DNA of 64,000 nucleotides from Candidatus Nitrotoga sp. CP45 (GTDB lineage: Bacteria; Pseudomonadota; Gammaproteobacteria; Burkholderiales; Gallionellaceae): NCBI GenBank assembly GCA_003402375.1, contig QFXJ01000045.1, positions 1-64,000 of the forward strand. Reading direction: 5' to 3'. The notes under the pieces were generated by a model. That model was not told the origin of the DNA, did not search any database, and saw only the letters and a program-made list of their open reading frames with translations. Position numbers and translations under genes: made by a program. Shown here piece by piece: positions 1 to 11,161 of this stretch (positions are counted from its first letter, which is position 1; every line of letters starts with the position of its first letter).

Positions 1-709
1 CGTGGAGCGCAACCACGCCATTACCGGCTTCCACAACGGCTGCACCGCTGCGCTCGTTGGCGGCACCGCCAATCCGGGGTTCAACGCGGCCTGTAATGCC
101 TTTGATTGATGATTGGGGAATACGGTTGTCAAGCGTGTTTACTATGCCTCCGACTGCGGCACCGCCGTACATCAGGGCTGCGGGGCCGCGTACCACTTCG
201 ATCCGGTCGACCAGTAGTGGATCGACGGCTGTAGCATGGTCAAAGCTCAAAGCCGAAACATCGAGCATGCCGATACCATTCTGCATAATCCGTACACGAT
301 CACCGTCAAGGCCGCGGATTACGGGACGGCTCGAGTTCGGGCCAAAGTAGGTGGAGCTTACCCCCGGGAGGTTGGAAAGCGTTTCACCTAATGTGCTTTC
401 TTGCCGAAACGATAATTCTTTTCCACTGAGCACCGAAACCGGGGATACAAGATCAAACAGGGCGCTTCCCAGCGGGTTGGCGGTTACTACAATCTGCGGC
501 AATAAAATTGCTTCAGTTGCTGATTGATCAGTAACCGGCTGTGCGGTAACGGGAAGGGTGATTTCAGCCGTGTGTGCGACAGAGGCTGTCGTAAATGCCA
601 GAAATAGTGAGGCCGGAAATAGTGAAGATAGTAAACCGGATTTTTTAGTCGCATCGGGAGTGCGCAGGTGTGCGTGTAGCGACCCGTCATATATGACGTG
701 CTTAAACAT
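1..709 (-). CDS. ZnuD-like TonB-dependent receptor, N-terminal part (cut by window edge)
   Basis: Partial outer-membrane TonB-dependent receptor; about 236 codons are visible and the gene continues past the left edge. The ATG at 709 has GGAG eight bases upstream. The protein starts with a long signal region ending near residue 48, then LPQIVVTANPLG and a plug domain with VIRGLDGDRVRIMQNG, SALSFDHA and DRIEVVRGPAALMYGG, a set typical of ZnuD/zinc-type receptors. It is the last gene visible in a leftward cluster of zinc genes, 48 bp after the DUF2946 gene, so zinc (free or ligand-bound) is the likely substrate. Substrate is inferred from the plug sequence and the neighbours; the barrel is not visible. 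Confidence 0.85.
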   Translation of the reverse strand, partial: MFKHVIYDGSLHAHLRTPDATKKSGLLSSLFPASLFLAFTTASVAHTAEITLPVTAQPVTDQSATEAILLPQIVVTANPLGSALFDLVSPVSVLSGKELSFRQESTLGETLSNLPGVSSTYFGPNSSRPVIRGLDGDRVRIMQNGIGMLDVSALSFDHATAVDPLLVDRIEVVRGPAALMYGGAAVGGIVNTLDNRIPQSSIKGITGRVEPRIGGAANERSGAAVVEAGNGVVALH

Positions 710-723
710 AACAATTCTCCAAA

Positions 724-751
724 ATATATTATATGACCCGTGTTAAACGGG
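724..751. promoter_or_regulatory. AT-rich palindrome and small hairpin before the receptor gene
   Basis: The 48-bp gap before the receptor start holds an odd palindrome ATATATTATAT (724-734) and a hairpin CCCGT-GTTAA-ACGGG (737-751). The AT core resembles the centre of enterobacterial Zur boxes, and TATAAT-like sequence is present, so this may be a second promoter/operator. No experimental or comparative support is visible. Confidence 0.3.
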
Positions 752-757
752 ACGGAC

Positions 758-1096
758 TTATGTAGTTTCTTGGAGAAGGGCAGGCGGGCCGCGCGCAATG
801 GCGGTAAGGGGGTGGCTGGAACGTAAGGTAAGGGCGACAAACCGAACCGTTCCGCCCGGAATGTCGGTAACCGTAAAAAAATGGGAAGCGCTGCCGAGTG
901 CGCCATCCAGTTGCGCGTAAGCCGCACAATACCCACATGTCGCTGAATGTGGTGTGTGCTTATCGTGCTGCTGGTCTTGTTTCGCAAGAGCGTGGTGCAG
1001 AGCATGTGCCGCTCCGCTTTGCTGGGCAAAAAGCAGCAACAGAGTAAGCAACAGCGGAATAAAAGCACGGGAAAATTGCATAACGGTGGCAATCAA
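758..1096 (-). CDS. DUF2946-like small His-rich exported protein
   Basis: Protein of 112 residues from a TTG at 1096 that overlaps the TGA of the upstream DUF3299 gene; an ATG at 1081 (five residues shorter) is the alternative start. An N-terminal hydrophobic segment is followed by a His-rich stretch and CGYCAAYAQL, which fits the DUF2946 family of small exported proteins often found near metal uptake genes. The Cys pair and about seven nearby histidines could bind a metal, but the family's function is not established. It sits between DUF3299 and the TonB-dependent receptor, so a role in zinc uptake or delivery is inferred from context only. Confidence 0.65.
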   Translation of the reverse strand: MIATVMQFSRAFIPLLLTLLLLFAQQSGAAHALHHALAKQDQQHDKHTPHSATCGYCAAYAQLDGALGSASHFFTVTDIPGGTVRFVALTLRSSHPLTAIARGPPALLQETT

Positions 1097-1776
1097 CGCG
1101 TGTTACTGAGATTATTCGGTGGTTTGTAAGGCTCAATTAGATCAGCCTTGACCTGATAACTGGCGAAACCCATCGAAGTATTGGAGGAAACTGTTTTCAA
1201 GGTGCCGCTGATGGAAATTGTCCCATATATCAACATTGCCTGCTTTAATGTCTTTTGTTGTTTTTTGGTCAAAGTTTTTGGAACTAAAACATGCAGAATC
1301 TGATTGCCAGGTGGGGGTGGTACATGGATACAGGCGCCAAAATAGGGTACCAAAAGAAATTCTTTGACACTGTCATAATTGACATCCAGTGGCACGACGA
1401 AACCTGGAATTTCAATGCGGGCACCGTTTAGATCGAACACAATAGGAGAGTCTTTCCAAGCTTCACGCACTCGTTCCAGGGCTTCTATGGCCCGGGGGTC
1501 GGAGTCTTTCAGCTTAGAGAGGTCTAACCCTTTGAGTGCTTTCATCGGATCCCAATCGGCGGGCATTAATTCGTCCCAGTTTAGTTTGCGGTAAGACCCT
1601 GCAGAATTGACCGTCGAAATTGATTTATTTGGCAGGCGGTCACCTACTTTGAACTCTTTTTTTTGTGTTTTGACATCGGCATTATTACTGGCAATAGATA
1701 AGCCAGTAAATCCAGACCAGAGCATAATTAACAAGGCTAATAATAGCCGCCATCTTTTTTTAAGGGTTGGCATCAA
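1093..1776 (-). CDS. DUF3299 family exported protein
   Basis: Protein of 227 residues with an N-terminal signal/anchor (LLLALLIMLWSGFTG) and the signature region EIPGFVVPLD ... LVPYFGACIHVPPPPGNQ at about residues 120-160, typical of DUF3299. The start ATG overlaps the TGA of the ABC permease gene, showing tight translational coupling. DUF3299 proteins commonly accompany a DUF2796 protein and a MacB/FtsX-type ABC pair, as in the Vibrio Zrg zinc system, so it is probably a periplasmic component of that transporter. Its biochemical role is unknown; the conserved Cys-His in GACIHVPPP is a candidate metal site. Confidence 0.75.
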   Translation of the reverse strand: MMPTLKKRWRLLLALLIMLWSGFTGLSIASNNADVKTQKKEFKVGDRLPNKSISTVNSAGSYRKLNWDELMPADWDPMKALKGLDLSKLKDSDPRAIEALERVREAWKDSPIVFDLNGARIEIPGFVVPLDVNYDSVKEFLLVPYFGACIHVPPPPGNQILHVLVPKTLTKKQQKTLKQAMLIYGTISISGTLKTVSSNTSMGFASYQVKADLIEPYKPPNNLSNTR

Positions 1777-3035
1777 ATTCTCGACATCAAACCGTCCATA
1801 AGCGACATTTTATAGGCACGATATCCTGGCAGCAACCCGGCCAACAAGCCCACGACCAAAACTCCAACCAAAAGTTTGAGCTCTGTGACAGAGACCAATG
1901 CAGGCTGCAGTGAGATGCCGTAGTTTGCCTGTACCCATGGTGCAAGCGTTAACGATGCTGCTGACAAAAGTATTATGCCCAATACAATCCCTCCCAGAGT
2001 CACCAGCAGGCTTTCACTAACCATAAGCAGAAAAATATCGCGCCGGCGGGCGCCAATTGCCCGCAGAACAGCCATCTCCCGTCGCCGTTCATTGAGGCTC
2101 GCCAGTAATACTGCCGCCAAGCCACTGAGGCCGACAAACACTACCATGCTGGTTACCGCCAGCAATGTTTTTTCTGCCACGCCTACCACCTGCCAAAGTT
2201 GCTCCAGGGCCACGCCCGGCATAACGGCGAGCAAAGGTTCGGCCTTGTACTCATTAATCTGCCGCTGCACTTTGAACACTGCGGCACGTGATTTCATACC
2301 CACCAATGCAGCGGTGACGTCTTTGGGGGTTAGATCAAACTTGCGGACGTGTTCACCTGGGATCGTAAACCCATGCATCGGTACACCGCCTACCCAGTTT
2401 AGATGGATAGCCGTGATGCCCTCCAAGGAAATGTGTAGGGTACGGTCTACCGGTGTCCCAGTCGGGGCAAGAATGCCGGAAACAATAAACGGCTTATCAT
2501 CGTGCGCCAGCAATCCGACTTCACCCATACCATGGCTGAGAATAATACGGTCACCAATGACATAGCCGAGTTGACTGGCAACTTCCATACCGAGTACTAC
2601 ATCAAAAACATCCCGAAACGGCTGACCTTTAACAAAGGACAATTGGCGGGAATCGCTGTAATGAAAATGTTCGAAATAGGCCGGTGTCGTTCCCATAACG
2701 GGGAATCCATGATGAGAATCCCCGAGCGATATAGGCACCGCCCAAGCGACCAAAGGATTTTCGGCAATGTCTTGAAAACTTTTCCAGGCGATGTTGCTGG
2801 TGGCCTCTCCGATCCTGAACACGGCATACAATATAAGTTGCACTGGACTGGTTCTGGCACCTACAACCAGGTCAGTGCCGGAAATTGATAGGCTAAACCC
2901 GCGGTGAGCCTCGTAGCGCAAGCGCTCAACGCCTAGCAGCATAGCTACGCTCAGGGCGATGGCCACCAGTGTGAGCCCCAAGGTTAAGCGACGATTCCAT
3001 GCACTGCGCAATGCTATGTGCAACAGATGGTTCAT
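1773..3035 (-). CDS. FtsX/MacB-type ABC transporter permease (Zrg-like)
   Basis: Protein of 420 residues: one N-terminal transmembrane helix (about 18-36), a MacB-type periplasmic domain, then a C-terminal FtsX domain with three helices (about 290-410) including the ERRREMAVLRAIGARR coupling region. This is the architecture of mechanotransmission ABC systems such as LolCDE and MacB rather than a classical importer. The start overlaps the end of the ATPase gene and its stop overlaps DUF3299. Together with ZrgA-like DUF2796 and DUF3299 it forms a Zrg-type module, known in Vibrio to support growth in low zinc. Transport of zinc itself is not proven for this family. Confidence 0.85.
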   Translation of the reverse strand: MNHLLHIALRSAWNRRLTLGLTLVAIALSVAMLLGVERLRYEAHRGFSLSISGTDLVVGARTSPVQLILYAVFRIGEATSNIAWKSFQDIAENPLVAWAVPISLGDSHHGFPVMGTTPAYFEHFHYSDSRQLSFVKGQPFRDVFDVVLGMEVASQLGYVIGDRIILSHGMGEVGLLAHDDKPFIVSGILAPTGTPVDRTLHISLEGITAIHLNWVGGVPMHGFTIPGEHVRKFDLTPKDVTAALVGMKSRAAVFKVQRQINEYKAEPLLAVMPGVALEQLWQVVGVAEKTLLAVTSMVVFVGLSGLAAVLLASLNERRREMAVLRAIGARRRDIFLLMVSESLLVTLGGIVLGIILLSAASLTLAPWVQANYGISLQPALVSVTELKLLVGVLVVGLLAGLLPGYRAYKMSLMDGLMSRI

Positions 3036-3739
3036 ATGACGTCCTCAATCAGCACGGCTTTGTTGATCGATGGCAGTGCTATCTCATAATGGAATTGCGC
3101 AGCCAATTGGCGGTTATGGCTTACGAAAATCAGCGCGGTATTTGCTTCGGCGCACTCTTGCAATAATAGATCGAGAAATGCAGATTGCCGGTCCGCGTCC
3201 AATGCAGAAGTCGGTTCATCGGCGATCACGATCTCGGGCTTTCCTATGAGCGCGCGGGCAGCCGCCACACGCTGTTGCTGGCCGACGCTAAGTTGGGTGA
3301 CGGGAATGTGCTCTGTGTTTTCCAGTTGCAGATGGGACAGCAGGCGCCGCGCTGTTTCTGACAGCGTACCGCCTCCAGCCAATGCCCGTTGCTGTCGGCG
3401 CGATGAAAAACGGCAGGGCAGGAGAACATTATCCATTACCGACAGATAAGGGATTAGGTTGAACTGCTGGAAAATAAAGCCGATATGGTCAGCGCGCAAT
3501 CTGTCGCATATCGCTGGACGCATGTGGGCGATATTTTTACCCAGAAGGTTGAGTGTGCCTTGTTGCACTGGTATAACCCCGCCAATAAGGCTCAACAAAG
3601 TGCTTTTTCCACTGCCGCTTGGGCCGTACAGGAATACCCGGGCTCCCGCCTCTACCCGCAATAGCTCTATGTCCAGGCAATCCACTGCTGCCCCCGGATA
3701 ACGGAAACGCAAATCCCGGATTTCAATTGCGAGCGCCAT
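3032..3739 (-). CDS. ABC transporter ATP-binding protein (Zrg-like)
   Basis: ATPase of 235 residues starting at the ATG at 3739, which overlaps the TAA of the upstream ZrgA-like gene (TAATG). A longer in-frame reading upstream lies inside that gene and has no ATPase features. Visible motifs are Walker A GPSGSGKS, signature LSVGQQQR and Walker B IVIADEPTSALD with the switch His in FVSHNR. Size and motifs match the LolD/MacB-type class of ATPases. It pairs with the permease immediately downstream (overlap of four bases), providing ATP-driven conformational change at the inner membrane. Confidence 0.9.
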   Translation of the reverse strand: MALAIEIRDLRFRYPGAAVDCLDIELLRVEAGARVFLYGPSGSGKSTLLSLIGGVIPVQQGTLNLLGKNIAHMRPAICDRLRADHIGFIFQQFNLIPYLSVMDNVLLPCRFSSRRQQRALAGGGTLSETARRLLSHLQLENTEHIPVTQLSVGQQQRVAAARALIGKPEIVIADEPTSALDADRQSAFLDLLLQECAEANTALIFVSHNRQLAAQFHYEIALPSINKAVLIEDVI

Positions 3740-4263
3740 TACCAGGCAATCCGCCGTTTGGATGGCGTCAGCATGGCAGCGGATTGACCGCGCGGAGTGG
3801 CAGCTTCCGTTTTTAATCGAAGCAAACCTGGAAAGTAAGTAAATAAATTGACTTCGAGATCGCGTAACTCGTTTGGTTTTGCGCAATAAAACACGAACTC
3901 GGCATCGAGGTCGGCATGTTCATGCCCCTCATGTTCATGTTCCTTATGTTTACCCGTTTGCAGTACCGGTGATTCCAGTGAGTATGTTTTTAAAGTGCAA
4001 CGCGCTGCCATCGTTGGCTGAAATAAACGTTCAGCTTGATGTAATTGATCCGCCATATGGCGAACTGCCGCTTTCTGTTTTTCCGTGCGCGGCTGATGCT
4101 CGAACCCCAATAGACTGTCGAGCGGGCTGGACAAATTGAGATGCAGCAAGCTGTCATCCAACGCGAGCTGCAAGGTGGCTACACCGTGCACGTGTGCTTC
4201 TGCTGCCATGATGGGAAACGGCGCAAGTAGAATCAGAAGCAAGAAAAATTTGCATTTGGTCAT
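3739..4263 (-). CDS. ZrgA-like DUF2796 zinc-binding periplasmic protein
   Basis: Protein of 174 residues. The ATG at 4263 is chosen because AGGAG lies eight bases upstream; a longer reading to 4293 lacks this. A cleaved signal peptide ends at AAEAHVHG, and residues 106-117 form a His/Glu cluster (KHKEHEHEGHEHA). DUF2796 includes ZrgA of Vibrio cholerae, a zinc-associated periplasmic protein. Two cysteines (about 89 and 127) could form a disulfide. It starts 23 bp after the DUF1826 gene and overlaps the ATPase start, so it is probably the metal-binding partner of the following ABC module. Confidence 0.8.
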   Translation of the reverse strand: MTKCKFFLLLILLAPFPIMAAEAHVHGVATLQLALDDSLLHLNLSSPLDSLLGFEHQPRTEKQKAAVRHMADQLHQAERLFQPTMAARCTLKTYSLESPVLQTGKHKEHEHEGHEHADLDAEFVFYCAKPNELRDLEVNLFTYFPGLLRLKTEAATPRGQSAAMLTPSKRRIAW

Positions 4264-4286
4264 AATCAATCTCCTTTCAACTAAAT

Positions 4287-4943
4287 TTACCAAAGTGCAT
4301 CCAAGGCCAGCAACACCCTAGGTGCTGTATTAGAGGGGACAATGGGTGAGCGATGAATAATGCCACTGCCCTCGTTGCCCTGCCAACGAGAACCCTTGAG
4401 CAAAACGATGGCATACGGTGTAGCACGATGAATGCCGGCCGGGTTCAGGATGACCCCGGAATTTTCGTCGGAAACGTCCGGGGGTGCTGGCCCCAGTTTG
4501 CTGCGATCCGCGCAGGCGTCCTCTAGCCATTCGGTAGCTGGGCCGCGATAGGTACACAACAAACGAATACCAACGTGGTCGACATGAAAGCGTGGACACA
4601 TGGCGCGGTTCACCACTTCCAGCCGCAACCCCACGGACGGGCAATCCAGCAAATCGGCAAATATTCCCACGAGCTGATTTAGGTCAGCTACGAAGGCCTC
4701 CTGCCCCGTATGTGCCGGTAGTAAGTGATGCGGAACAGTTGACCCCGCCTTCAAAACATGACGAAAACCGCTGCCCATTTGATGGGCTACAACGGCGAGA
4801 TAGGCATCGATAACTGGATCAGGATTTCGTTTGACTATCACAACCTGTGTTTCCGCTTCAAAAATGTCAATGAGCCGAAGCAGTTCGCTTGACGGCTCCA
4901 TTTCTGGCAATTGCAGTGATCGATACTGGATAGCGACACTCAT
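4287..4943 (-). CDS. DUF1826 domain protein
   Basis: Protein of 218 residues starting at the ATG at 4943, which overlaps the TAA of the CobW-type GTPase gene (TAATG); GGGAG lies about nine bases upstream. The sequence matches the DUF1826 family, including CPRFHVDHVGIRLLCTYRGP near residue 125 and a C-terminal IIHRSPIV segment. The His/Cys pattern RFHVDH with a later His suggests a possible metal-dependent, cupin or dioxygenase-like fold, which is speculation. DUF1826 genes are frequently next to COG0523 GTPases in zinc-responsive loci, and the translational coupling here supports a joint role. Confidence 0.75.
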   Translation of the reverse strand: MSVAIQYRSLQLPEMEPSSELLRLIDIFEAETQVVIVKRNPDPVIDAYLAVVAHQMGSGFRHVLKAGSTVPHHLLPAHTGQEAFVADLNQLVGIFADLLDCPSVGLRLEVVNRAMCPRFHVDHVGIRLLCTYRGPATEWLEDACADRSKLGPAPPDVSDENSGVILNPAGIHRATPYAIVLLKGSRWQGNEGSGIIHRSPIVPSNTAPRVLLALDALW

Positions 4944-6175
4944 TACGCTTCTCCCGGGAATTCCCGATCCATGCTGATATCCCAATGCGGGAACGGATCA
5001 GGCAAGCTATGCCACGTCTCTTTGCCCTGCTCCATTTCATAATCCGTCAGCAAGCAGGCATTTAGCGAATTACATATTCTGTGTTTATTCATGTCTATGC
5101 CGATAAACACCAATTCTTGGCGACGATCGCCGAAATCGGCGTTCCAGTTTGCTTTAATCTGGCCAAGACTTTCCTGATCGTCCGGCCATTGTGATTTGTC
5201 CACATCCGCCCACCATAAACCGGCATATCCATGGCGACAGGCACCACCGGCCTGTGACCAGCTAGCCGCAAAGTTGAAACGAGAGGCCAGCCAGAAATAA
5301 CCTTTCGAACGCAGTACGCCTGCCCATTCACTATGAATCAAATTCCAAAACCGTTCAGGATGAAATGGACGGGAAGCGCGATAAACAAAACTCTTGATAC
5401 CGTATTGCACACTTTCCGGTAGATGTTCTCCGCGCAATTCTTTCAACCAGCCGGGAGCCTGCTCGGCCTGTTCGAAATTAAATAGTCCGGTGTTCATAAT
5501 CATGTCCAGCGGTACGCAGCCAAACTCTGAAATTACAATTTTGGCGCGCGGATTAAGGCTAGCCAGAACATGGCGTAGCCAGTCGAGATAATCACTGCTG
5601 ACCAGGTCTGCCTTATTGATGACAATCACATCGCAGAATTCCACCTGATCAACCAGCAGGTCAACCACAGTGCGGTCATCTTCTTCTCCTAGGTTTTCAC
5701 CACGTTCAATTATGGAATCAGCGGATTGGTAATCACGGAAAAAATTTAAGGCATCCACTACCGTAACCATCGTATCCAACCGTGCCACATCGGATAGACT
5801 GCGGCCTTGCTCGTCAACGAAGGTAAACGTTTCTGCGATTGGCAGGGGCTCAGAAATCCCCGTCGATTCGATCAACAAGTAATCAAACCGGTCTTCTTTT
5901 GCTAGCCGGTTGATTTCCAGCAACAAGTCTTCGCGCAAAGTGCAACAAATACATCCATTGGTCATTTCGACCAATTTTTCCTCGGCACGTGATAATTCCG
6001 CACCACCTTGACGTACTAATTGGGCGTCAATGTTAATCTCCGACATATCATTGACAATCACGGCTACGCGTTTCCATTCACGGTTGTTTAGTACGTGATT
6101 AAGTAAGGTAGTTTTGCCGGCACCTAAAAATCCGGACAGAACAGTTACAGGAAGAATTTGCATGGATTTACCCAT
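4943..6175 (-). CDS. COG0523 (CobW/ZigA-type) metallochaperone GTPase
   Basis: GTPase of 410 residues from the ATG at 6175; an ATG at 6163 is an alternative. Walker A GFLGAGKT is at about 15-22, the COG0523 metal-binding motif CICC at 75-78, ESTG near 101 and NKAD for guanine specificity in the middle. A CobW C-terminal domain follows (about 285-395). COG0523 proteins deliver zinc or other metals to client enzymes under metal starvation. No His-rich linker is seen. The neighbours (ZIP transporter upstream, DUF1826 overlapping downstream, zur nearby) place it in the zinc-allocating branch; the client is not indicated. Confidence 0.9.
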
Positions 6176-6262
6176 AATATTTGTTGAACATCGGCAATAA
6201 AATTGCCGTTGGTATTTGTCCGAAAACAATCAATTTCAAGCAGCTCATTGATTCGTTTTCCA

Positions 6263-7024
6263 TCAATGCAGCAAATGAGCCAGTCTTGCTGTGCCTACAC
6301 CAAGCAACATCAGCATGAATTGAATTAACGTATCTTGTGGTTTGCATTTACGGTGAAGCTGGGGTATCAAGTCGGCAACTGAAATGTAAATGAAGCTGGC
6401 TGACGCCAGAATCAGCATGTAAGGGATTGCAACCTGTAGCCGATCTAGCGCCAGCCAACCGAGCACACCACCTAAAGTCATGGCGACTCCAGATAAAGCA
6501 TTCAACGCAAGTGCACGAAATTTTGGTACCCCCGCGCCAAGCATGATCATGAAATCCGATATTTCTTGCGGAATTTCATGCACCAATATGGCCAACGCTG
6601 TCGCCCAACCGAGCTTAGGGTCAGCAAGGAATGCAGCCGCAATCAGAATCCCATCCACGAAATTATGTAGGCTGTCACCTACGATAATCATTGCAACTTG
6701 GGGATGATTTGAAACGTGTCCATTTATTGCAGAATGGTCATGGCGCCACAATGCCACTTTTTCCAACAGAAAAAATCCAGCTAGGCCGCCTAATAATATC
6801 CACCCGGCCTGTTCCATATCCAGGCCGAGTTCTAATGCTTCCGGCAGCATATCGGTTAGGGAAAAAGTTAGCATGACTCCCACGGCATATGCCACCATTT
6901 TGTCGGCAAAGCGGGCTAGTATGGAAAGGGAAAGTGTCGCTGCCAGCAGAACTGAAACAACGCCACCAACCAATGTTGCCAAAATTATTGATAACAAAAT
7001 CATGAGTGTTTTATTAAGGTCCAA
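6263..7024 (-). CDS. ZIP family metal transporter
   Basis: Inner-membrane protein of 253 residues from a TTG at 7024; an ATG at 7003 would remove seven residues. About eight hydrophobic helices are visible. The ZIP binuclear metal site is present in two helices: GDSLHNFVDG (about 116-125) and LVHEIPQEISDF (about 147-158). ZIP proteins move zinc, and sometimes iron or manganese, into the cytoplasm. It is the first gene of the leftward operon and is preceded by a roughly 300-bp leader holding two palindromes next to zur, so zinc import under Zur control is likely. Confidence 0.9.
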   Translation of the reverse strand: MDLNKTLMILLSIILATLVGGVVSVLLAATLSLSILARFADKMVAYAVGVMLTFSLTDMLPEALELGLDMEQAGWILLGGLAGFFLLEKVALWRHDHSAINGHVSNHPQVAMIIVGDSLHNFVDGILIAAAFLADPKLGWATALAILVHEIPQEISDFMIMLGAGVPKFRALALNALSGVAMTLGGVLGWLALDRLQVAIPYMLILASASFIYISVADLIPQLHRKCKPQDTLIQFMLMLLGVGTARLAHLLH

Positions 7025-7243: not shown

Positions 7244-7262
7244 AATGCAATAATGTTGCATT
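7244..7262. promoter_or_regulatory. Palindrome 1, candidate Zur operator
   Basis: AATGCAA-TAATG-TTGCATT is a perfect 7-bp inverted repeat with a 5-bp spacer. Its core ATGCAA-N5-TTGCAT is repeated 39 bp to the right. It lies about 220 bp upstream of the ZIP start and 67 bp past the zur stop. Dyad size and spacing fit a Fur/Zur-family site; binding is inferred. Confidence 0.5.
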
Positions 7263-7274
7263 GTAACTGCGACA

Positions 7275-7309
7275 GACCAAGTTATGCAACATAGTTGCAT
7301 AACTTGGTC
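7275..7309. promoter_or_regulatory. Palindrome 2, 15-bp arms, candidate Zur operator or terminator
   Basis: GACCAAGTTATGCAA and its exact reverse complement flank CATAG. The inner core ATGCAA-N5-TTGCAT matches palindrome 1. Long arms could also form a hairpin ending the zur transcript, but neither side has a strong T-run (only TCTTATT on the plus side). The shared core favours a protein-binding site; both roles are possible. Confidence 0.5.
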
Positions 7310-7328
7310 TTATTGAAGTGAAAAAGAA

Positions 7329-7748
7329 CTACCGGGAAATGGGACGGCCACAATCATCGCAGACGCCCTTGATATTGAGTTCAATTGACTCAACCGTAAA
7401 ATGCTTGGGTAAATTGGCCAGTTCTGGCTCTATTTCTGTTAGACAGCAAATCTTGCCACACTCTATACATTGAAAATGTGCATGCCGGTGAGTTGTATCA
7501 GGGTGTGTAGCCTGAAATCGGCACGCCCGGCCAGTACCAGCCACTTTGTGGGCCAGACCATGAATAACAAGCCAATCCAGCACCCGATAAACAGTGACTC
7601 GATCAAACTCACCCAGGCTTTTAAGCTTTTCGAGAACTTCCGGATGAGTAAGAGCGCTTCCTGCATTTAACAAAACACCAAGTACAGCACTCCTCACAGC
7701 CGTAGGACGCTCGCCAATTTCTTGTATCATTTGATCAGCTTTATTCAT
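7329..7748 (-). CDS. zur: Zur-type Fur family zinc repressor
   Basis: Protein of 139 residues with the Fur-family layout: winged helix in the first 80 residues (FDRVTVYRVLDWLV recognition region), then the dimerisation domain. The structural zinc site is CIEC (94-97) plus CDDC (130-133), and His 87, 89 and 91 (THRHAHF) supply regulatory-site ligands. Fur paralogues sense different metals; Zur is chosen because the downstream, same-strand operon encodes zinc uptake functions. It is separated from the ZIP gene by 304 bp containing two palindromes, so it probably has its own promoter. Confidence 0.85.
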   Translation of the reverse strand: MNKADQMIQEIGERPTAVRSAVLGVLLNAGSALTHPEVLEKLKSLGEFDRVTVYRVLDWLVIHGLAHKVAGTGRACRFQATHPDTTHRHAHFQCIECGKICCLTEIEPELANLPKHFTVESIELNIKGVCDDCGRPISR

Positions 7749-7925: not shown

Positions 7926-9251
7926 TCATTTAATTGGTGCGAGAATTGTCCTTGCACACAACATTCCACTCATTACCGCGCCTTCCAGCGTAGCCGGATA
8001 TTGACCCGCCGTATAATCGCCTGCTAACAACACGTTGGGCATTTGTGTGGTATGGGCAGGGCGAAGCAGGTTTGTTTCACAGGAGAAGGTGGCGCGTTTT
8101 TCTGCAATAACTTTGTGCCACACAGGCGCTTCCCTTATTCCAAGTTGTTCACATAACTCTTGTGCCACCTTCTGTGCTAATAGTTCATGCTTTAAATTCT
8201 GATGTTTCCCTTGTGCGCTAATAACGGCGGCGATGAGGCCACGCTGTCCGGAGATTTGTCCTTTATCAAACAGCCATTGGGCAAAGCAGCGGTCTAAACC
8301 CAGCATTGGGTGCGGCAAACATACTTGTTCGGGATATTGCAGATACACGGTATAAATTGGTTGATATGGAATGGCTGCAATTTGCTCAGCTATCAATCCA
8401 AGTTGCGGTACGGTATGGAACAGCCGCGCAGCTGAAATGGGCGAAGCTGCACAAATGACATGGCTGAATAGCTCAGTATGCGCAGTGGATAGTAGCGTTT
8501 GGCGGGTAGTTAACCTGATTTCGTCGCCGTTTGGAATGATGGCTTCTACGTTGCAAGCGGTAAGCACCGTGCCCCTATGTTGTTTGACATATTCGGCCGC
8601 CCGCTCTGGAAGTAGTGCCGTGAAATCTATGCGTGGCAGCAGCATGTCGCTATCGTTGCGCGCACCGTTTAGGCTGTCGCGCAATACATTCAGTAACACC
8701 TGAGCGGAAGCAATATGCATCGGTGTGTTAAGTGCGGAGATGCAAAGCGGTTCCCATAGTAATCGTATTAGTCCATCACTTTGTCCATGCATGCGTAACA
8801 ATTCAAATACACTGATGTCGTGTAGCAAGGTGAAATTAATGTGCCTCAGCGCCAGCATAAAACGTGCGGCACGCAGCCGTTCGCCTAATGACAATCCCTT
8901 TGCGCTGAGCAGTCCAACCAGTAGATGAAGCGGAGCAGGCAGGTGAGGCGCTTTTAATTCAAAGCGATTGTGCAAGATGAGTTGCAGCGGCAAACGCAGG
9001 AAGTCGTGCTCGACGTTACCGCCGATTTGTTCAATAAGCTGCAATGTATGGTGATAGCAGCCAAGGAGGATGTGCTGGCCGTTATCAAGTTGAACATTGT
9101 TATGCCACACGCCGCGCGCGCGGCCGCCGAGTTGCCTGGCGCTTTCGAACACCGTAACCGGAACATTTGCCGCAGCGAGCGTAACGGCGGCGGCCATGCC
9201 GGCGTAGCCGCCGCCAATAATGGCGACATGATGATTTTTATTATTGCTCAC
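7926..9251 (-). CDS. hpnE: HpnE, squalene-associated FAD-dependent desaturase
   Basis: Flavoprotein of 441 residues from a GTG at 9251. The N-terminal Rossmann motif GGGYAGMAAA (about 13-22) is followed by FESARQLGGRARG, and a C-terminal LLAGDYTAGQYPATLEGAVMSG segment is typical of amino-oxidase/phytoene desaturase-like proteins. In the bacterial route HpnE reduces hydroxysqualene to squalene. It is the last gene in the order hpnC, hpnD, hpnE, with 45 bp separating it from hpnD, so the three are probably cotranscribed. Confidence 0.9.
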   Translation of the reverse strand: MSNNKNHHVAIIGGGYAGMAAAVTLAAANVPVTVFESARQLGGRARGVWHNNVQLDNGQHILLGCYHHTLQLIEQIGGNVEHDFLRLPLQLILHNRFELKAPHLPAPLHLLVGLLSAKGLSLGERLRAARFMLALRHINFTLLHDISVFELLRMHGQSDGLIRLLWEPLCISALNTPMHIASAQVLLNVLRDSLNGARNDSDMLLPRIDFTALLPERAAEYVKQHRGTVLTACNVEAIIPNGDEIRLTTRQTLLSTAHTELFSHVICAASPISAARLFHTVPQLGLIAEQIAAIPYQPIYTVYLQYPEQVCLPHPMLGLDRCFAQWLFDKGQISGQRGLIAAVISAQGKHQNLKHELLAQKVAQELCEQLGIREAPVWHKVIAEKRATFSCETNLLRPAHTTQMPNVLLAGDYTAGQYPATLEGAVMSGMLCARTILAPIK

Positions 9252-9296
9252 AATACTAATTTTTTGTTCGCTTTGGGCGTAGCGAAGTACAGGAAA

Positions 9297-10130
9297 TTAA
9301 TTTTTCACCCAAGTCTTCCATGCCAGCCACAGTTTGTGCAGAGGGGTGAGCGAGACGCGTTCTTTTAACACATGACAACCACTGTCAACGATTTCTTCCA
9401 GAGTAGTCCGATAAATTGCTGCCATGATCAGGCCAGTGCGCTGCGATTTGCGGTCTATAGCGGGCAGTTGCTCGAGTGCCCGCTGGTAATAGCGTTGTGC
9501 GCGGTCAACCTGAAACTGCATTAGTTTTTGAAAACCTTCGCTTTCCTTGTTATCAAGGATATCGTTTACGTGTACGCCAAAAAGCGCTAACTCACCAAGT
9601 GGCAGGTAGATGCGCCCGCGCCGGGCGTCTTCACCCACGTCACGGATGATATTGGTAAGCTGGAAAGCGAGGCCAAGATCGTGCGCATATTTAAGCGTAT
9701 TAGGATCAGTGTAGCCAAAAATTTCCGCAGCGAGCAGCCCCACGACCGAGGCGACACGATAACAATACTGTTGCAAGGCTTTGAAATCGGCATATTGGTG
9801 TTGTTGCAAATCCATTTCCATGCCGTTGATGATTTCGTGGAAATGTTCTTGAGGCAGGCTGTACTGTTTAACCACCGGCACCAATGCCCGTGCAACCGGA
9901 TGCTGCGGCGTGCCCGTGTAAATAGCGGCCACTTCGGTGCGCCACCACGCCAGCGTAGCACGTGCTACGTTTTCATCTGAATTTTCGTCCACAACATCGT
10001 CTACTTCGCGACAAAAAGCATACAACGCTGTGATAGCGCGGCGTTTGTCTGACGGCAGAAACATAAAACTGTAATAAAAGCTCGAACCGCTTTGGGCTGC
10101 CTTGTCTTTGCAATACTGATCTGGAGTCAT
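9297..10130 (-). CDS. hpnD: HpnD, presqualene diphosphate synthase
   Basis: Prenyltransferase of 277 residues of the squalene/phytoene synthase family. The first Asp-rich motif is YAFCREVDDVVDE (about 37-49) and the second is LTNIIRDVGEDARRGRIYLP (about 158-177). HpnD condenses two farnesyl diphosphates into presqualene diphosphate, which HpnC converts to hydroxysqualene. The Asp motifs are intact, so it should be active. It lies 51 bp downstream of hpnC on the same strand. Confidence 0.9.
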   Translation of the reverse strand: MTPDQYCKDKAAQSGSSFYYSFMFLPSDKRRAITALYAFCREVDDVVDENSDENVARATLAWWRTEVAAIYTGTPQHPVARALVPVVKQYSLPQEHFHEIINGMEMDLQQHQYADFKALQQYCYRVASVVGLLAAEIFGYTDPNTLKYAHDLGLAFQLTNIIRDVGEDARRGRIYLPLGELALFGVHVNDILDNKESEGFQKLMQFQVDRAQRYYQRALEQLPAIDRKSQRTGLIMAAIYRTTLEEIVDSGCHVLKERVSLTPLHKLWLAWKTWVKN

Positions 10131-10181
10131 GTTAAGTAGTAATCAAACGGTAACTGGCCAAACTATCCATTTAGGGCACCT

Positions 10182-10997
10182 TTAAAAGCTGAATGGCGCA
10201 CTTTTTCCCAGCATAATAACCCAGTCAAATGGACGCAACACAGGACGCTGGCGAAACATGTCGAACTGCACGGCTTCAAGTTTGTCGAGTATGCGATTGC
10301 CGCCCGCAATGATGATCCTCATCTCAATACCGATACGGCCAGTCAATATACTGCCAAGAGGGGCGCCACTACGCATCATGTCGCGTGTGCGCTGAACCTG
10401 AAACTGCATAAGTTGTTGCCATTCCTTATCTACGCGGCCATCCGCGATATGCGTTTCAGTTACGCCGAAGTGCGCCATTTCATCTTGCGGCAAATAGATG
10501 CGGTCGATGGCATAGTCTTTTGTTACATCCTGCCAGAAATTAATGAGTTGCAGACTGGTACAGATAGCGTCGGAATATTGCAGATTTGGGGGGCTAGCTT
10601 CTTCATACAGATGTAACAACAACCTGCCGACTGGATTAGCGGAACGGCTGCAATAATCCAGCAGTTCGTCGAAATTGGCGTAACGTTTTTTGAGTACATC
10701 CTGCGAAAAAGCGTCAAGCAGATCGTGGAATAATTGCAGCGGCAACTGATGCCGCGCAATGATGTCCGCCAAGTCGCAAAACAAAGGGGTAAGCGGTGTT
10801 TCATTGGCCGCAATGCGCTTGAGTTCAGTGCGAAACCCATCAAGTGCCATAAAACGTTCTTCATTTTGGAGATCACCCTCATCGGCAAAATCGTCAGCCT
10901 GACGGGCAAAATGGTAAATTATTTCAACTGCCCGTCGCAAACGTTTAGGCAGAAGAATGGAAGCGACAGGAAAGTTTTCGTAGTGATTGACGGCCAT
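10182..10997 (-). CDS. hpnC: HpnC, hydroxysqualene synthase
   Basis: Protein of 271 residues from the ATG at 10997; a TTG at 11054 would add 19 residues without family similarity. It is a squalene/phytoene synthase paralogue with IYHFARQADDFADE (about 26-39) and INFWQDVTKDYAIDRIYLP. In the HpnCDE route it hydrolyses presqualene diphosphate to hydroxysqualene. First gene of the hpnC-D-E operon. No squalene-hopene cyclase is present in the window, so whether the squalene feeds hopanoids cannot be seen here. Confidence 0.88.
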   Translation of the reverse strand: MAVNHYENFPVASILLPKRLRRAVEIIYHFARQADDFADEGDLQNEERFMALDGFRTELKRIAANETPLTPLFCDLADIIARHQLPLQLFHDLLDAFSQDVLKKRYANFDELLDYCSRSANPVGRLLLHLYEEASPPNLQYSDAICTSLQLINFWQDVTKDYAIDRIYLPQDEMAHFGVTETHIADGRVDKEWQQLMQFQVQRTRDMMRSGAPLGSILTGRIGIEMRIIIAGGNRILDKLEAVQFDMFRQRPVLRPFDWVIMLGKSAPFSF

Positions 10998-11161
10998 TTT
11001 GGGACAAACTTTGATCAGTGATTCTCGTGTTGATGGGAATTTAGGACACAGCAAACTGTGGGGGTAATGGCCGCTACGCAGTAAATGCTTGCACTATATA
11101 AATGTACGCGGTGATGTCACCTTGCGCTTGGCAAGGGCTTGCGGATGTAACAAGGCTTAGG

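Follow-up and report, generated by a model that had tools for sequence, protein, structure and literature searches.

A probable zinc-starvation operon of Candidatus Nitrotoga combines a Zrg module with a predicted Fe(II)/2-oxoglutarate oxygenase

Nine adjacent genes at the start of a contig from Candidatus Nitrotoga sp. CP45, which belongs to a nitrite-oxidising group, raise the question of what this row does and why it includes an ATP-binding cassette (ABC) pair of the FtsX/MacB type and a DUF1826 gene. The window analysed here, 64,000 nucleotides, is the first 64 kb of the 233-kb contig QFXJ01000045.1 in a 2.8-Mb genome. On its minus strand, at positions 1-7024, it encodes a ZIP permease, ZigA, DUF1826, ZrgA, an ABC ATPase, an FtsX/MacB-type permease, DUF3299, DUF2946 and a TonB-dependent receptor. 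In a profile search of the window proteins all nine products exceeded Pfam cut-offs, in agreement with a preliminary description that had listed nine leftward genes of these families. That description lacked the Zur-like gene upstream of the row, the double operator before ZIP and the truncation of the receptor by the contig end. Our data indicate that the row is very probably a zinc-starvation operon, and DUF1826 is newly predicted here to be an Fe(II)/2-oxoglutarate oxygenase.

Zinc starvation, as had been proposed earlier, is supported by a ZigA score above a curated cut-off, by the kept zinc ligands of ZnuD and by an operator that recurs before zinc and zrg genes of distant relatives. ZigA (4943..6175, minus strand), a zinc metallochaperone GTPase of the COG0523 family that bears the motifs GFLGAGKTT and CICC, reached 683 bits with the NF038288 model (cut-off 600); its Pfam scores were 189.5 bits for cobW and 88.7 bits for CobW_C. 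The ZIP-family metal permease (6263..7024, minus strand, starting at TTG 7024 or ATG 7003) carries the motifs HNFVDG and HEIPQE and passed the family cut-off (PF02535, 106.5 bits), while its score with the ZupT equivalog was 74 bits, below the cut-off of 252. The suggested pairing of a ZIP permease with a cytoplasmic GTPase stands. A second ZIP gene (G000:C23:31958-32737, corresponding to L042:4959-5738) is 45% identical to the operon copy, and reading of its surroundings revealed no evident zinc genes.

The receptor gene (2..709, minus strand; TonB plug PF07715, 79.5 bits) is truncated since the window begins at the contig end, and only the N-terminal 236 residues remain. ZnuD is the best NCBIfam model for this fragment, below its cut-off, and of the ZnuD zinc site the fragment includes only the plug residues D-H. 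Among solved structures ZnuD is the best relative of the receptor by a margin of 40 orders of magnitude. The high-affinity zinc ligands of ZnuD are D99, H100, E340 and H499, according to the available passages of PMC4557270. All four are identical in the alignment of a full-length relative, which bears out the earlier view of a ZnuD-like receptor, and all four are also found in the second receptor copy of Nitrotoga BS (L036) and in L071 and L082. None of the seven other receptors of the genome, which align only roughly at 23-28% identity, has the four together. The full-length relative in L037 obtained 362.9 bits with the NCBIfam ZnuD model, its best model but below the cut-off of 950, and we class the receptor as ZnuD-like only. 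In the genome assembly (G000), contigs C46 and C31 each have an N-terminal receptor part at one end, and C10 and C2 likewise a C-terminal part. The break at base 2 is therefore most likely caused by the presence of at least two similar receptor copies. On C2 the C-terminal part is followed 3′ by genes for a BNR-repeat protein and a thioredoxin-like protein. By reading, L036 has the same pair after its operon receptor, whereas L037 has a Sel1-repeat gene at that place. The operon receptor seems to be interrupted in L036, where the H499 region is disrupted and the second receptor, extended at its N-terminus, lies beside the operon, and also in L031. In the latter (G026), a TonB-ExbB-ExbD-like set, named by reading its translations, is located near the operon and oriented towards it (L031:4476-6308).

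Upstream of the row lies a gene for a Fur-family regulator of 139 residues (7329..7748, minus strand; PF01475, 39.2 bits, cut-off 23.1). It contains two CxxC pairs, the structural cysteines expected of a Zur protein, and scored 33.4 bits with the Zur equivalog PRK11639 (cut-off 167). We call it Zur-like on the basis of its context and the operator. Two Fur-family proteins were found in the genome, and because the one encoded elsewhere scores more strongly, the regulator of the row is probably not Fur. A Fur/Zur-family gene occupies the same place in 6/6 genus relatives. For wider comparison we used 80 Zrg loci, the best 80 of 205 relatives by permease similarity; by title they are mostly from Betaproteobacteria with a few from Gammaproteobacteria, and they represent 79 genomes (two loci share one) and include seven contigs that were already in the set of relatives. 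Such a regulator gene is near 19 of these loci.

Between the regulator gene and ZIP we found two 17-bp palindromes of the form ATGCAAC-N3-GTTGCAT. Box 1 (7284..7300) reads ATGCAACTATGTTGCAT and box 2 (7245..7261) reads ATGCAACATTATTGCAT on the minus strand; both match ATGCAAN5TTGCAT exactly. These are the only two exact matches in the genome, with 12 more places at one mismatch. Both boxes are kept in seven Nitrotoga sequences, with a single mismatch in one box of L037. Single copies of the exact pattern are also present elsewhere in several genomes of the genus, which means that a pattern this short does not by itself prove an operator. Rhodocyclaceae and their relatives have a similar palindrome between the regulator and ZIP genes, for instance CAAATGCAACATTGTTGCATTTG in L095, and in L059, L065 and L067 it precedes the regulator instead. 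When up to two mismatches were allowed, 51 sites were found in the 80 loci (1.35 Mb), compared to 2.8 expected from an approximate shuffle. Of these sites, 46 lie at most 450 bp upstream of ZIP (25), ZigA (9), ZrgA (7), Zur (4) or a porin-like gene (1); one lies within the permease gene and four elsewhere. At least one site is present in 35 loci and none in the other 45, and loci with ZIP nearby have a site more often (23/33) than the others (12/47). Six site-bearing loci are without a nearby zinc partner, and four of these have the site 120-142 bp upstream of zrgA.

Box 1 is part of a longer hairpin (about 7274-7310). Over the seven Nitrotoga sequences 94.9% of its cells are paired and 7/17 pairs have changed on both sides, and none of 500 shuffles was equally high on four of five measures. 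The hairpin may be a terminator of the regulator transcript and an operator in one; a clear T run follows it in L036 only. Searches for the operator strings gave no literature match, with the supplementary logos of PMC2770081 and RegPrecise lying outside the search, and we do not claim the motif as unpublished; one paper comparing regulons has no mention of Zur. The operator offers a handle for zinc regulons in bacteria whose box is unlike that of E. coli (PMC6103462).

The genes of the row are tightly packed. Five of the eight junctions overlap (ZigA/DUF1826 TAATG, ZrgA/ATPase TAATG, ATPase/FtsX ATGA, FtsX/DUF3299 TGATG and DUF3299/DUF2946 TTGA, the last presuming that DUF2946 starts at TTG 1096), in line with the earlier remark that most genes are joined in this way. 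Gaps remain at ZIP/ZigA (87 bp), DUF1826/ZrgA (23 bp) and DUF2946/receptor (48 bp). From this spacing and its conservation we infer co-transcription. ZrgA exceeded its cut-off in 7 of 19 Candidatus Nitrotoga genomes, including that of the window, and an eighth has a weak match below the cut-off. Order and strand of the ten genes (regulator plus the nine) are the same in the window and in all six genus relatives with ZrgA above its cut-off, at 73-100% identity, and the row is thus not a chance arrangement. A 4.3-kb contig of a genus member in which ZrgA is absent (L193, G061:C44) has both boxes and the genes for the regulator, ZIP, ZigA and DUF1826, after which comes a short DUF3299 remnant. 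This suggests a row of two separable halves, with an assembly artefact as another possibility. Beyond the regulator (7926-11054) are three minus-strand genes that we take to resemble the squalene genes hpnCDE.

What does DUF1826 do in such a row? The gene (4287..4943, minus strand; PF08856, 180.1 bits) adjoins ZigA in the window, and members of its family are near a COG0523 gene in 19/30 sampled loci. The single-chain structure model, itself of moderate confidence, has a double-stranded beta-helix fold and matched Fe(II)/2-oxoglutarate oxygenases. A candidate metal triad, H120-x-D122 and H197, is followed by R209; the four residues are present in 35, 37, 35 and 38 of 39 aligned rows, respectively (the window is counted twice). 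In Fe(II)/2-oxoglutarate oxygenases the C-terminal arginine binds 2-oxoglutarate. We consider it highly likely, from the model, that DUF1826 has the oxygenase fold, and likely that it is an active enzyme of this class. Several observations speak against this prediction. The model was built from 9 sequences with a mean predicted local distance difference test score (pLDDT) of 69.6, and residues 114-118 beside the motif are below 50. The first histidine is absent in 4/39 rows and the second in 4/39. Profile searches gave no link to oxygenases, since the 9/9 DUF1826 sequences matched PF08856 only, apart from one chance-level match. Because remote families are often beyond the reach of such profiles, this lowers the oxygenase claim but would not remove it. 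A shared fold does not by itself show function, and DUF1826 might instead be a zinc- or iron-binding chaperone that has retained the metal site of a double-stranded beta-helix; the available passages of PMC11761036 guess that the homologue PA5534 is a zinc-sparing paralogue or chaperone. We regard this as unlikely, since the triad and the C-terminal arginine are kept together in most of the 39 rows. No statement of DUF1826 as an Fe(II)/2-oxoglutarate oxygenase was found in the literature passages. Uptake, the earlier reading of the row, does not account for DUF1826, which resembles an oxygenase.

The second part of the question concerns the Zrg core, consisting of the adjacent genes for ZrgA, a MacB-type ATPase and permease, and DUF3299. 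ZrgA (formerly DUF2796; 3739..4263, minus strand) belongs to a family of periplasmic zinc-binding proteins and has a His-rich loop, HKEHEHEGHEHADLD. It scored 165.7 bits with PF10986 (cut-off 27.4) and 102.7 bits with the equivalog NF047873 (cut-off 185); by these scores it is a member of the ZrgA family but not the NCBI equivalog. Its solved relatives are PA4063 (7ahw) and 8ezw. The ATPase (ZrgC; 3032..3739, minus strand; PF00005, 103.4 bits) has FtsE, DevA and LolD as closest NCBIfam models, each below its cut-off. DUF3299 (ZrgE; 1093..1773, minus strand; PF11736, 128.9 bits) has the solved relative 4hsp. The permease (1773..3035, minus strand; FtsX domain PF02687, 66.7 bits; MacB_PCD PF12704, 39.1 bits) was modelled as a single chain from 40 sequences with a mean pLDDT of 83.1. 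Its model matches LolE, MacB, HrtB, YbbP and FtsX in fold comparison, and it has the four long helices, the first of them followed by a periplasmic domain, that characterise mechanotransmission ABC transporters such as MacB and LolE. The earlier remark that this pair is not a classical importer is in accordance with this fold.

Within 6 kb of the permease, the 80 loci contain ZrgA (76), the ATPase (79), DUF3299 (67), ZIP (33), COG0523 (13), DUF1826 (8), ZnuA-family (16), ZnuB-family (11) and TonB receptor genes (11, counted with three receptor queries). Neighbours were counted by tblastn with E up to 1e-6, Pfam having confirmed the identity of the ZnuA and ABC-3 queries, and the counts depend on the flanks, which extend at least 5 kb to the left and 2 kb to the right of the permease in 53 loci. 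ZIP or ZnuA/ZnuB-family genes are within 6 kb in 39 loci and absent from that range in 41, partly because of short contigs. Seven loci have ZIP, PF01297 and ABC-3 genes together in their vicinity, and in 16 loci a ZIP gene of the same strand lies upstream of ZrgA, its end being less than 250 bp away. The Rhodocyclaceae locus L065 has nearly the same long order as the window, at 32-63% identity: Zur, ZIP, a weak DUF2946 match, COG0523, DUF1826, ZrgA, ATPase, permease and DUF3299, then a second weak DUF2946 match, receptor, thioredoxin-like protein, TonB, ExbB and ExbD. Its COG0523 protein is not ZigA (113.5 bits, cut-off 600), and both DUF2946 matches are below the cut-off. In L078 the order is ZIP, COG0523, DUF1826, ZigA (617 bits), a DsrE-family protein, ZrgA, ATPase, permease, a small protein, a porin-like gene, ZnuA-family, ABC-3 and DUF3299. 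Porin-like genes are near 17/80 loci, including L078:9854-11227, with a weak DUF3138 match below the cut-off. A gene for a PBP_like_2-type periplasmic binding protein directly precedes the Zrg permease in four loci that are Nitrosospira or Nitrosovibrio by title (L073:3596-4621, L081:8924-9709, L083:8885-9901 and L094:8881-9960).

In the available passages of the literature the Zrg module is described either as a zinc importer (PMC9820375, PMC9817125) or as a pyochelin-cobalt exporter (PMC11481552). Genes of another inner-membrane importer family often accompany Zrg, and this neighbourhood pattern leads us to favour an auxiliary role of the pair over an importer, although we hold that role to be evenly balanced. 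Against it stands that a V. cholerae znuA mutant that also lost zrgA survived low zinc about 100-fold less well, which the passages of PMC9820375 read as the loss of a binding protein serving an importer. If the ABC pair were itself the importer, with ZrgA as binding protein and ZIP as a second route, as in the V. cholerae model, the need of the znuA mutant for zrgA in low zinc, the high-affinity zinc sites of ZrgA (both PMC9820375, in the passages available) and the presence of ZrgA within 6 kb of the permease in 76/80 loci would be accounted for. The LolE/MacB/FtsX-like fold with its four long helices, the frequent presence near Zrg of another zinc importer family, and the lack of any classical importer among the 50 matches listed in either fold comparison make this importer unlikely. 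The general replacement of ZnuABC by ZIP-Zrg was considered and rejected: PF01297 is present in 46/79 genomes, without a significant link to ZIP nearby. PF01297 was found in 16/33 genomes with ZIP near Zrg compared to 30/46 without (p 0.17), a further observation that does not favour our interpretation. In the genus the corresponding numbers are 1/7 genomes with ZrgA and 7/12 others (p 0.15).

Somewhat less probable still is that the pair works as a MacB-type exporter for a metallophore, free or in complex with a metal. In P. aeruginosa, removal of PA4065 in a zinc-uptake mutant increased intracellular pyochelin and cobalt (PMC11481552, in the passages available), and the window permease is MacB-like in fold. 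On the other hand, no non-ribosomal peptide synthetase (NRPS) condensation domain was found in the genome, so that synthesis of a pyochelin-type compound is unlikely, whereas an opine metallophore is conceivable. Neither HlyD/MacA nor an outer-membrane factor is among the listed families (25 of 38) of 50 picked Zrg neighbours, and a CusB-like HlyD query, which may miss MacA-type adaptors, found a neighbour in 2/80 loci. No MacA-type adaptor was seen among the row genes up to the contig end at which the row breaks off. It had also been suggested that the ABC pair may power assembly of the receptor; with a TonB receptor near so few loci, 11/80, this receives no specific support.

Returning to the zinc assignment as a whole, homologues consistently tied to another metal were not seen, as a zinc-linked partner is within 6 kb in 31 of the 53 long-flank loci. 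Among the listed families (25 of 38) of 50 hand-picked neighbour proteins, taken from loci with and without a zinc partner, none is another transition-metal system, and a single KdpA and a single E1-E2 ATPase there probably represent potassium transport. Against the assignment, no zinc partner is within 6 kb in 22/53 long-flank loci, binders of other metals fall under PF01297 too, and two of the Zrg-linked receptors checked, those of L065 and L117, are without the ZnuD site, from which it follows that not every Zrg-linked receptor is ZnuD-like. That the row serves cobalt, copper or iron, with zinc a mere family label, is very improbable given the kept ZnuD ligands, a ZigA above its equivalog cut-off and the PF01297 and ABC-3 genes in related loci, even though TonB receptors are prone to misassignment and although, according to the available passages of PMC11340326, COG0523 proteins are able to bind cobalt and ZupT and CobW proteins have an effect on cobalt content.

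We propose the following course of events, which as a combined explanation (regulation, zinc path, auxiliary Zrg and DUF1826 oxygenase) we consider somewhat better supported than not. When zinc is plentiful, the Zur-type regulator would repress the row at the two operator boxes, as their conservation and position suggest. During zinc shortage, and judging the proteins by their families, the ZnuD-like receptor would bring zinc across the outer membrane, DUF2946 and ZrgA would hold it in the periplasm, ZIP would carry it across the inner membrane and ZigA would hand it to client proteins in the cytoplasm. The Zrg pair, as a machine of the MacB/LolE mechanical kind, would not be a zinc channel; ATP would move its periplasmic domain and drive, together with ZrgA and DUF3299, a periplasmic step in which zinc is freed from a ligand or passed to ZIP, or in other species to a ZnuAB-type importer. 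The predicted oxygenase DUF1826 would work beside ZigA. Only tentatively do we suggest an oxygen-using step in zinc starvation, in which DUF1826, paired with ZigA, alters a zinc ligand or a protein for zinc release or delivery while the ATP-driven Zrg pair feeds ZIP or a ZnuAB-type importer without itself moving zinc through the membrane.

The locus would place a zinc-shortage kit in one row of a bacterium from a nitrite-oxidising group, with DUF1826 as a candidate new enzyme of the zinc-starvation response; among the matches listed in a literature title search, none concerned zinc uptake in Nitrotoga. Were zinc loss to induce an Fe(II)/2-oxoglutarate oxygenase, the iron, oxygen and carbon status of the cell would be tied to zinc allocation, and the function of this frequent ZigA neighbour (PA5534 in P. 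aeruginosa) becomes a testable question. For Zrg modules beside ZIP or ZnuA/ZnuB-type genes, an auxiliary machine is added as a third option to zinc importer and chelator exporter.

Parts of the row resemble several known systems; what is said of them here follows, except for PMC9431628, the available passages of the papers cited. The four high-affinity ligands of ZnuD from Neisseria meningitidis are common to full-length relatives of the window receptor, the score below the NCBIfam ZnuD cut-off being the difference. In Francisella novicida, FTN_0880-FTN_0879 combine COG0523 and ZIP in one Zur-regulated operon, and the DUF1826 gene FTN_1758, located elsewhere in the genome, is directly regulated by Zur; those passages name neither Zrg nor a receptor (PMC5786701). 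In the cobW1 operon of Cupriavidus metallidurans a double Zur site, serving extreme zinc starvation, controls a COG0523 gene; the operon encodes paralogues of zinc-requiring enzymes, again with neither Zrg nor a receptor named in the passages (PMC11340326).

In P. aeruginosa, PA5534-PA5535 (DUF1826 and zigA) show the same adjacency as in the window, beside zinc-sparing paralogues (dksA2, folE2, pyrC2) and not Zrg. Both genes are upregulated after N-acetylcysteine (PMC9431628), and both were higher in zinc-depleted cells, with p values of 0.42 and 0.056 for PA5534 by two methods (PMC11761036). The same species has the ZrgA-ATPase-permease-DUF3299 module as PA4063-PA4066, for which a structure of PA4066 also exists (PMC9820375) and for which pyochelin-cobalt export has been proposed (PMC11481552), in contrast to the Nitrotoga genome with no NRPS condensation domain found.

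A further counterpart of the module is ZrgABCDE of Vibrio cholerae and V. parahaemolyticus, which has the same four core genes and is zinc- and Zur-regulated (PMC9817125, PMC9820375). The Vibrio operon has five genes, with the DUF2607 gene zrgD next to zrgA (PMC9817125). Seven proteins gave no DUF2607 match up to E 10, and DUF2946 is present instead (758..1096, minus strand, starting at TTG 1096 or ATG 1081; PF11162, 26.0 bits, cut-off 23.7), a small, exported-looking protein containing His and Cys. DUF2946 shows no profile link to DUF2607 and was not accepted as ZrgD; DUF2946-like genes lie directly before ZrgA in L060 and L061, at the position that zrgD has in Vibrio. Unlike the Vibrio operon, the module in the window has ZIP, ZigA, DUF1826 and a ZnuD-like receptor joined to it, and its DUF3299 gene is followed by DUF2946.

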